From contig CALTNV010000071.1 in the NCBI GenBank assembly GCA_943845485.1, positions 1 through 8,215 of the forward strand: a stretch of DNA of 8,215 nt. Reading direction: 5' to 3'. How positions within the stretch are numbered: the first letter of the stretch is position 1; each line of letters starts with the position of its first letter. The position numbers were made by a program, and so were the translations under genes. The DNA comes from an uncultured Flavobacteriales bacterium. GTDB taxonomy: Bacteria > Bacteroidota > Bacteroidia > Flavobacteriales > CALTNV01. A model generated the notes under the pieces. The model made no database searches. It was not told the origin of the DNA and worked only from the letters and a program-made list of their open reading frames with translations. Shown here one piece after another: positions 764 to 8,215 of this stretch.

Positions 764-823
764 GATATGATTTTAAAATAAAAATAATTTTATTTTTATT
801 TTAAAAGTTTTTTAAAATATACT

Positions 824-853
824 ATGATATCTATTTAATTAAGCCTACATTTG
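824..853 (+). promoter_or_regulatory. Putative Bacteroidota-type promoter of cold-shock gene 2
   Basis: TACATTTG at 846-853 is a perfect TAnnTTTG box. ATG at 824-826 stands at the -33 position with the same 19-nt spacing as in copy 1. The leader to the ATG at 881 should be about 20-25 nt. The in-frame TTG at 851, which would lengthen the protein by 10 residues, is the end of this promoter box and is therefore an unlikely start codon. Confidence 0.65.
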
Positions 854-880
854 TTACATAATATTATTATAAAAATAAAA

Positions 881-1072
881 ATGAAAAAAGGAACAGTAAA
901 ATTTTTTAATGAAACTAAAGGTTTTGGTTTTATTACTGACGGAGATACAAATGAAGAGTATTTCGTACACGTATCAGGTTTAATTGATGAAATTCGTGAA
1001 AATGACGAAGTTGAATTCGAATTATCAGAAGGTAGAAAAGGTTTAAACGCCGTGAACGTAAAAGTATTATAA
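881..1072 (+). CDS. Cold-shock domain protein, copy 2
   Basis: This is a second complete 63-residue CspA-type cold-shock domain with the same RNP1 KGFGFI (13-18) and RNP2 FVHVS (28-32). It differs from copy 1 by E21G, V35I and Y46F. These changes are conservative apart from the Glu-to-Gly in the turn after RNP1, and none touches the RNP residues. Nine of the twelve coding differences fall in changes that leave the amino acid unaltered or in double-base changes within one codon, so both copies appear to be under purifying selection and functional. It has its own promoter and terminator, so the two genes can be regulated separately. The ATG at 881 matches the start chosen for copy 1. Confidence 0.95.
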   Translation: MKKGTVKFFNETKGFGFITDGDTNEEYFVHVSGLIDEIRENDEVEFELSEGRKGLNAVNVKVL

Positions 1073-1094
1073 TATTTATATATATTTTCACTTC

Positions 1095-6091: not shown

Positions 6092-6121
6092 CTTATATTT
6101 TTTTTATCCGTAAATTATTTG
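6086..6121 (+). promoter_or_regulatory. Weak promoter candidate of the HPF-receiver gene
   Basis: TTG at 6086-6088 and ATTATTTG at 6114-6121 resemble the -33 and -7 elements. The -7 box lacks the leading TA and the 25-nt spacing is longer than usual. If real, transcription starts only 15-20 nt before the ATG at 6143, and the in-frame TTG at 6086 cannot be the start codon. The divergent region 6025-6142 holds both this candidate and the promoter of the acetyltransferase gene. Confidence 0.3.
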
Positions 6122-6142: not shown

Positions 6143-6835
6143 ATGGAAATTGTTATTGCTTCAGATATAGAATTAGCATCAAGTAAAGTAAGTAGGATAG
6201 CTGATAAAAGAATTACACAACTAATAGGAGCATTTCCTCATATTAGTGATATTAAATTTTATATAGGAAAAGAGGGTAGAGAATTTTATTATGAACTTAC
6301 CATAAAAATAAAAGAAGAGTCTATTTATTTCAAAAAATATTTCACCAATTTAAAGTTTGAGCTTATTCAGGGAATCCAAGAAATTTATGATGAATTATAT
6401 ATAAGGTATGAGGTTAAAAAAAATGAAAGATATTATAAACCTATACATTTGATTTGTATTGTTGAAGAAAATAAAAAATTAGCAATCAAATTAACTGATG
6501 ATTTAAAACACACTTTTAATACTCAAATTATTGTGTTTTCATCACCTTTAGAATGTTATTATAAATTAAAGTACTATAAACCAGATTTAATTATTATGGA
6601 TTATGACTTTAAAGAATTTCCTAAGAATAAAATTTTGTTTGAAAATGGCTTGTCAGCAATGAAAGCGATAAAAAGGGATTATAAAGATCAACTTTTTTTA
6701 CTGATGGTGAATGATAATAATGTTGTTTTAAATCATCAACATTTAGTTTGCATTTCTAAGGACAATAAATCAATGGAAAACTTACCATTGATTATTAAAG
6801 AAATGGTTCCTAACCTACCTTTAAATCCATCTTAG
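6143..6835 (+). CDS. HPF/RaiA-like domain fused to receiver-like domain
   Basis: This 230-residue protein appears to have two domains. Residues 1-94 follow the beta-alpha-beta-beta-beta-alpha order of the ribosome hibernation factor HPF/RaiA: MEIVIAS strand, helix with SSKVSRIADKRITQLIG, strands DIKFYIG, REFYYELTIKIK and SIYFKKYF, then helix LIQGIQEIYDELYIRYE. Residues 99-222 resemble a CheY-type receiver. Strand IHLICIVEEN (101-110) has E108/E109 at the acidic pair, PDLIIMDY (147-154) puts D153 at the phospho-acceptor position, GL (169-170) follows, LFLLMVN (184-190) has Asn where Thr/Ser is usual, and VCISK (202-206) supplies the conserved Lys206. I infer a ribosome-binding protein with a phosphorylation-sensing or signal-tuned domain; both calls rest on pattern, not alignment. 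A start at TTG 6086 would add 19 residues, but the HPF-like fold begins at the ATG at 6143. No histidine kinase is in the window. Confidence 0.6.
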   Translation: MEIVIASDIELASSKVSRIADKRITQLIGAFPHISDIKFYIGKEGREFYYELTIKIKEESIYFKKYFTNLKFELIQGIQEIYDELYIRYEVKKNERYYKPIHLICIVEENKKLAIKLTDDLKHTFNTQIIVFSSPLECYYKLKYYKPDLIIMDYDFKEFPKNKILFENGLSAMKAIKRDYKDQLFLLMVNDNNVVLNHQHLVCISKDNKSMENLPLIIKEMVPNLPLNPS

Positions 6836-6863: not shown

Positions 6864-8215
6864 TTAACTTTCTATTACACAAGGGTAATTAAACAAGCAG
6901 TTTTGTTTAATTTCATTGGTGATGTTTTTAGGAACCATTAATTCCCAATCTGACATCTCTCCCTTTTTTATCATTTTTAATACGTTATCTGAAAAAATAT
7001 TTAACAAAGATGTGTTAACCCCTTTTATATCTTCAAGTCTATTATTTTCAATCATATGAGAATACAAACCTTGCATTTTTTCTGGGACTGCGAAATTTTC
7101 TAAAGTATAAAGATCTTTTGTACCATAAATATGAGCTGGGTAAACTAACATTTTTACATTGTTACCAAAACCTACACCAAAAGCCTCAAAAATACCACCA
7201 GATAAATTTGTGTAGTATTTTTCTTCAAATATTGTTTGTAGACTGTAAATACCTAAAATAACACCAATTTTTCTACCTTTTGTAAACCCAGATAAATAAC
7301 TTACTACTTTATAAAACTTTTGATAGTTAGATATCATAACAGTATGGCCTATTGAGCCTAATAAACTTACTCTATCTAAAAAATCTTGATCGTTAATTTC
7401 TCCATCTTGCTTTAAATCTTTAAGAGTTAATTCAAACAATACGGAAATATTATCTTCATTAACATCTTCTTCTTTTTTAAACTGATTTAATCCAGTTTCT
7501 AGCATGTCAATATTAACTAATGTTGGTGGTCTAAACCTACCTCTTAATAGAAGTATATTTTTTTTGTAAAGTGCCTCAGAAGGTTGTAAAATTTTACCAG
7601 ATGGATGGAAAACAGTGGCGTCAGTAAAACCGAATTTTACTAATTTTAAACTCATCAACCTGTTATCAACATTTTCAAAATCAGGGCCTGTTAGTCTAAA
7701 CATATCAATTTCAACTCTTTCTCTAGAAAGTCTGTCAAAAATGTTTAAAAGTAGTTGCTCAGGGTTATCTGCATTATAAAAACAACTATGAATTAAGTTT
7801 ACACCTAAAATTCCTAAAGCATCATGTTGAAGCCTGTTATTAGGGTCATGCATTTTAATATGCAAAATACATTCATTAGGCTCAGAGTTAGGAGTTAATT
7901 GAAATTTTAATCCTATCCATCCTTGACCTTGGTTTGTTTTATGATAATTTAAAGCTTCAACAGTATTAGCAAATGCAAAAAACTTTGTATCATCAGCTCT
8001 GTGAGATAGTTCATGAGTAATTTGACTATACTCTTTATTTAGCATTGTAATTAGTCTCTCTTCGCAAACATATCTTTTAGCTTTTCCATATATAGAGTCA
8101 CTAATTTTCATGTCATATGCAGACATTGTATATGCTATTGTTCCAGAAGATCCACCTGCTCTAAAAAAATTTGCAGCAACTTCTTGTCCTGCACCAATTT
8201 CTGAAAAGCTCCCAT
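6864..8215 (-). CDS. Conserved protein of unknown function (partial, 5' end outside window)
   Basis: The frame stays open to the right edge. An ATG at 8126 exists, but the codons upstream of it encode GSFSEIGAGQE and FFRAGGSSGTIAYT, which match from memory the conserved N-terminal region of a widespread family of about 450-500 residues. The true start is therefore beyond 8215, and about 449 codons are visible. Recognisable family stretches include MSAYDMKISDSIYG, FFAFANTVEALNY, GWIGLKFQL, HDALGILGVNLIHSCFY, VDNRLMSLKLV, QPSEALYKKNILLLRGRFRP, NIDMLE and FEEKYYTNLSGGIFEAFG. There is no signal peptide in the visible part, no transmembrane segment and no nucleotide-binding loop that I recognise. 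As I recall, databases label relatives variously, including 'TonB-dependent receptor' and 'nicotinate-nucleotide adenylyltransferase'. The sequence shows neither a plug/barrel nor an HxGH motif, so I do not adopt those names. It converges on the HPF-receiver gene with a 28-nt gap. Confidence 0.85.
   Translation of the reverse strand, partial: GSFSEIGAGQEVAANFFRAGGSSGTIAYTMSAYDMKISDSIYGKAKRYVCEERLITMLNKEYSQITHELSHRADDTKFFAFANTVEALNYHKTNQGQGWIGLKFQLTPNSEPNECILHIKMHDPNNRLQHDALGILGVNLIHSCFYNADNPEQLLLNIFDRLSRERVEIDMFRLTGPDFENVDNRLMSLKLVKFGFTDATVFHPSGKILQPSEALYKKNILLLRGRFRPPTLVNIDMLETGLNQFKKEEDVNEDNISVLFELTLKDLKQDGEINDQDFLDRVSLLGSIGHTVMISNYQKFYKVVSYLSGFTKGRKIGVILGIYSLQTIFEEKYYTNLSGGIFEAFGVGFGNNVKMLVYPAHIYGTKDLYTLENFAVPEKMQGLYSHMIENNRLEDIKGVNTSLLNIFSDNVLKMIKKGEMSDWELMVPKNITNEIKQNCLFNYPCVIES

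Follow-up and report, generated by a model that had tools for sequence, protein, structure and literature searches.

Can a ribosome-hibernation domain be joined to a signalling receiver in one protein? The question is raised by a gene at positions 6143–6835 (plus strand) of contig CALTNV010000071.1 from an uncultured Flavobacteriales bacterium. The whole stretch of DNA analysed, 8,215 nucleotides, is called the window. The gene encodes 230 amino acids plus a stop codon. An earlier note had proposed, from the sequence, that an HPF/RaiA-like domain is fused here to a CheY-type receiver. The protein is very probably an HPF/RaiA-fold domain (residues 1–89) fused to a degenerate CheY-like receiver (residues 103–221), as modelled with AlphaFold2 (AF2). 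The observation is real and beyond chance, since collinear, gap-free homologues were found together with HPF-specific and receiver-specific fold matches.

The translation of the open reading frame contained the residues named in the earlier note, E108/E109, D153, N190, and K206. An in-frame TTG at 6119 gives an alternative 238-residue version of the protein (P0002). Two homologues, P0003 and P0004, have the same length as the 230-residue form, and both begin at ATG, not at a position matching the upstream TTG.

The N half was predicted by AF2 to have the order strand-helix-strand-strand-strand-helix in residues 1–89 (6143–6409, plus strand, as are all features of this gene). This is the HPF order, as had been claimed from the sequence. 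The HPF fold of the N half was found by predicted structure only (AF2, Foldseek, and VIA-align). The N half was aligned with 51 HPFs and E. coli HPF; the alignment was collinear, with a shortened β2–β3 hairpin. The hydrophobic core was defined as the columns hydrophobic in at least 80% of HPFs. Each of the three members (the window's protein, P0003, and P0004) kept 25 of these 27 columns, while the decoys, 300 shuffles and 300 real sequence windows of like hydrophobic content, reached at most 23. A linker of residues 90–102 (6410–6448) lies between both domains in the AF2 model.

The C half has a receiver fold in residues 103–221 (6449–6805), supported by the predicted structure and by fold search, in agreement with the receiver claimed earlier. 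PF00072 was found in all three members, with E 0.004 and 17.7 bits against a cut-off of 30.2 for the window's protein and E 8.4e-6 for the best member. The long-HPF dimerisation domain PF16321 gave no match in the three members at E up to 10. In a VIA-align comparison of the whole model, the top row, 28tm_A (by its title an uncharacterised human protein with a Rossmann fold), was level with receivers. The key residues were placed by translation, alignment, and AF2. The acidic pair E108 and E109 (6464–6469) follows receiver β1, and D153 (6599–6601), the candidate phospho-acceptor in the motif PDLIIMDY, ends β3. N190 (6710–6712) follows β4 at the Ser/Thr position, and K206 (6758–6760), the conserved lysine, follows β5. 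D153 and K206 are identical in all members. In both homologues, residues 108–109 form the usual E-D acidic pair, and position 190 is Asp rather than Asn. Cys203 presumably sits where CheY has its switch Tyr. Four of the five active-site residues are thus kept (E108, E109 or D109, D153, and K206), and the Ser/Thr is missing in 3/3 members. One report (PMC12632262) calls a receiver that lacks one or more of the five active-site residues a pseudo-receiver, and the C half agrees with this definition of an atypical response regulator.

This is a genuine gene, although a very rare one in the databases searched. Among some 5.8 billion proteins, a search returned, besides the window's own protein, only P0003 (77% identity) and P0004 (74%), with gap-free alignments. 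Searching again with the three-row profile and a limit of E 1 gave no further homologues. Genome contigs scanned with the three-row alignment (two exact peptide patterns) gave no distant relatives, viral contigs scanned likewise gave none, and plasmid DNA and phage records held no match. Run over a set of 49 loci, hidden Markov models (HMMs) built from the whole protein and from the two halves separately gave E values no better than 0.23. The earlier note had suggested a search of Flavobacteriia genomes for the same architecture. Profile searches matched 10 of 399 genomes drawn from the order and 10 of 240 of the family, with none spanning both halves among the candidates scored (up to 7 first-look candidates per genome in the former search and up to 12 in the latter); the places matched were receivers or chance-like. 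The N half alone gave a weak match in 3 of 395 Bacteroidota genomes. Of these three (L134, L135, and L136), the one inspected was L134, which lies in a frame that we take to be a phosphopantetheinyl transferase. The fusion looks either recent or rarely sampled.

HPF proteins of fusion length were also searched for, using words from one Flavobacteriales HPF. Ten proteins of 127–396 aa were found among 74 candidates, and none had PF00072. Five of the ten were inspected; two were recombinase-HPF run-ons and three look chimeric. The three longest frames around ordinary HPFs among the matches listed (234, 233, and 173 aa) were inspected and had the HPF at the end after upstream read-through; the list also includes shorter frames, e.g., of 168 and 164 aa. 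As a separate observation, HPF lies close behind a tyrosine-recombinase gene in several Bacteroidota (P0007, P0009, L129, and L130), giving run-on frames or fused proteins.

What would such a fusion do? The HPF-like half would dock on the 30S subunit, perhaps with altered or weaker contacts. The receiver half would modulate this docking via inefficient D153 phosphorylation, a partner protein, or dimerisation. The protein would then be an extra, signal-gated ribosome-associated factor beside the ordinary short HPF. That the fused domain has kept its docking on the small ribosomal subunit and that the receiver modulates this docking has a chance somewhat short of even. The hibernation reading was held at this level because most basic positions are lost and the receiver has pseudo-receiver features. 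More tentative, and rather doubtful, is the full form of the proposal, a hibernation-type factor whose docking on the ribosome is gated by the (pseudo-)receiver fused to it, with a signal acting on ribosomes directly and no transcription step between. The earlier note had suggested that the fusion would couple ribosome silencing to two-component signalling or to a pseudo-receiver switch. An HPF fold followed by a receiver fold stood up in predicted structures and fold searches. The coupling to ribosome silencing is still inferred, with the basic positions mostly gone and the receiver a pseudo-receiver that has no Thr and no predicted α4.

Known hibernation factors are controlled mainly via synthesis and turnover. 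If the proposal is true, the fused receiver would switch ribosome activity post-translationally in response to a signal, and a translation factor would join the outputs of response regulators. Even with ribosome binding lost, the protein would be a case of the HPF fold reused beside a pseudo-receiver.

Several findings weigh against the hibernation proposal or against the HPF assignment on which it stands. The earlier note had named a family profile match for each half as support for its claim; PF00072 was seen in the receiver half, though under its cut-off for the window's protein, and PF02482 was not reported in 3/3 members at E up to 10. A profile-profile comparison of the N half with 13 Bacteroidota HPFs gave a probability of 4%. 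Against an HMM of the 51 HPFs, the three members scored 6.1, 4.0, and 6.0 bits. Of 20,000 real windows, 45, 211, and 48 reached these scores, as did 235, 855, and 244 of 20,000 shuffles. A 13-sequence HMM was weaker, with scores reached by 480, 390, and 298 real windows and by 1931, 1548, and 1201 shuffles. Varying with model and member, the share of real windows that matched the member scores thus rose as high as 2.4%, and that of shuffles as high as 9.7%. Of five AF2 models of the full protein, the best was the only confident one (77.1; the others 60.1, 42.6, 40.8, and 39.9). Modelled alone, the N half had a predicted local distance difference test score (pLDDT) of 62, with residues 1–22 under 50. 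In the receiver half, the Ser/Thr position is occupied by N, D, and D in the three members, helix α4 was not predicted, and no kinase gene occurs within the 8.2-kb window.

The basic positions also count on this side. Ten columns basic in at least 60% of HPFs were used for the count. The window's protein kept 2 of 10, P0003 kept 3, and P0004 kept 2; E. coli HPF kept 9, and the median over all rows was 8. In an alignment built without the query, each member kept 3 of 11. In helix α2 of the HPF-like domain (residues 70–89, 6350–6409), the basic positions that contact ribosomal RNA (rRNA) are mostly gone. R23, K64, K65, R88, K92, and K93 are identical in the three members, and because of these shared residues an altered basic surface may remain on the HPF-like half. 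L063, L065, and L066 represent another S30AE type in Bacteroidota, a divergent one (with a start like M-IQ-NTD-NI). They are the only HPFs equally poor in basic columns (2, 3, and 3 of 10), and all three score above the Pfam cut-off; the HPFs next in order keep 6.

The chief rival to the hibernation proposal is a repurposed HPF fold. The N half would be descended from HPF and would no longer bind the decoding centre. Within an atypical response regulator that binds another RNA or a protein, it would act as the output domain or as a dimerisation domain. The few basic positions kept favour this explanation. In the HPF RafH (PMC10799931), R84, R88, and R91 of α2 contact 16S rRNA at C1382–G1384, and K21, R24, and R28 of α1 contact h44. 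The pseudo-receiver features of the C half point the same way. The N half is also better conserved between members (80–84% identity) than residues 96–230 (70–73%), which shows constraint, though not of what kind. However, six basic residues persist in all members, the net charges of the members (−1, +1, and +2) lie inside the range of the 51 HPFs (−4 to +11), and L063, L065, and L066 are S30AE proteins with equally few basic positions. A repurposed fold is a serious possibility, clearly below an even chance.

It is improbable that the N half is unrelated to HPF, being a mere likeness of a simple fold or drawn into the HPF fold by AF2. The input of AF2 was three close sequences, profile support was absent, and the HMM scores were near the decoy tail. 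In a reverse test with a three-member HMM, the 51 HPFs outscored real windows (p about 1e-12) but did no better than shuffled HPFs (p 0.14). Since the HMM scores were near the decoys and the reverse test did not beat shuffled HPFs, profile scores alone do not establish homology. A competitor is less probable again. Such a protein would weakly occupy the HPF site or pair with HPF, and would delay or relieve hibernation rather than cause it. An HPF fold with fewer basic positions is consistent with this role. An S30AE protein was found in 294 of 296 sampled Bacteroidota genomes and in 14 of 16 related genomes, so an ordinary one is likely co-present. Direct evidence for the competitor was absent, and no co-encoded HPF was seen in the analysis, which covered the 8.2-kb window.

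The HPF-receiver fusion was compared with known systems. Like short HPF and RaiA (YfiA; PF02482), the protein has the predicted strand-helix-three strands-helix fold, a collinear alignment, and the conserved hydrophobic core. It differs from them in having no Pfam match, most basic positions lost, a shortened β2–β3 hairpin, and a receiver attached. Long HPF and RafH share with it an N-terminal HPF-type domain, a linker, and a second domain, but the second domain here has a receiver fold and does not match PF16321. PF00072 receivers of related genomes (the receiver-only L071, L073, and L078 and the hybrid-kinase receiver L068) share the fold, D153, K206, and the acidic pair. Unlike them, the fusion protein has lost the Ser/Thr, lacks a predicted α4, and has an N-terminal HPF-fold partner. 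Atypical response regulators with pseudo-receivers, as described in PMC12632262, likewise miss one of five active-site residues; the fusion protein differs in its HPF-like partner domain and in keeping the Asp phosphorylation site.

The nearest described idea is HibA of Archaea (PMC13324472), an HPF/RaiA domain with four CBS domains that was found on ribosomes by cryo-electron microscopy. Both proteins pair an HPF-type domain with a kind of domain known for regulatory roles, and HibA is a precedent for HPF domains acquiring such partners. In HibA the partner is a CBS module, it is N-terminal, the hosts are Archaea, and ribosome binding was seen by microscopy, whereas the fusion protein is known from sequence and predicted structure. 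The methods of the HibA paper refer to a search of bacterial HPF for fused domains; the terms 'response regulator' and 'receiver' do not occur in its main text. In the literature searched, which left most subscription papers outside its coverage, no HPF-receiver fusion was named by title or abstract start, and to that extent the earlier note, which knew of no described example, was borne out.

Other weak matches were judged to be chance: 9xqs (E 0.031), F0F1 gamma (E 0.064), PCIF1_WW (E 0.058; best member 0.028), and two PHROGs matches (E 0.029 and 0.1). Rfam gave no match in the window. The Pfam neighbours were ordinary: Ffh, FolD, a class-I glutamine amidotransferase, a GNAT protein, a CAP-domain protein, two cold-shock proteins, and a metallo-beta-lactamase-fold protein. 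Compared across 19 genomes, Ffh was 81% identical in one, 79% in six others, and 66% in a further one; by identity rather than by a tree, the lineage is most likely a flavobacterium close to Crocinitomicaceae. Within the 3' portion of the HPF-receiver gene, at 6768–6793 (minus strand), lies a terminator-like stem-loop for the gene that converges on it from the minus strand (one found, 0.2 expected). The gene at 6864–8126 (minus strand), whose frame is open to the end of the window, had no Pfam or NCBIfam match but is conserved: of 240 genomes in the nearest family, 225 have it, at up to 63% identity. The tandem cold-shock-domain genes at 440–720 and 800–1090 (plus strand) are nearly identical in the coding part and in an upstream leader of about 60 bases (mean column identity 95%). 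This conserved leader may be regulatory.
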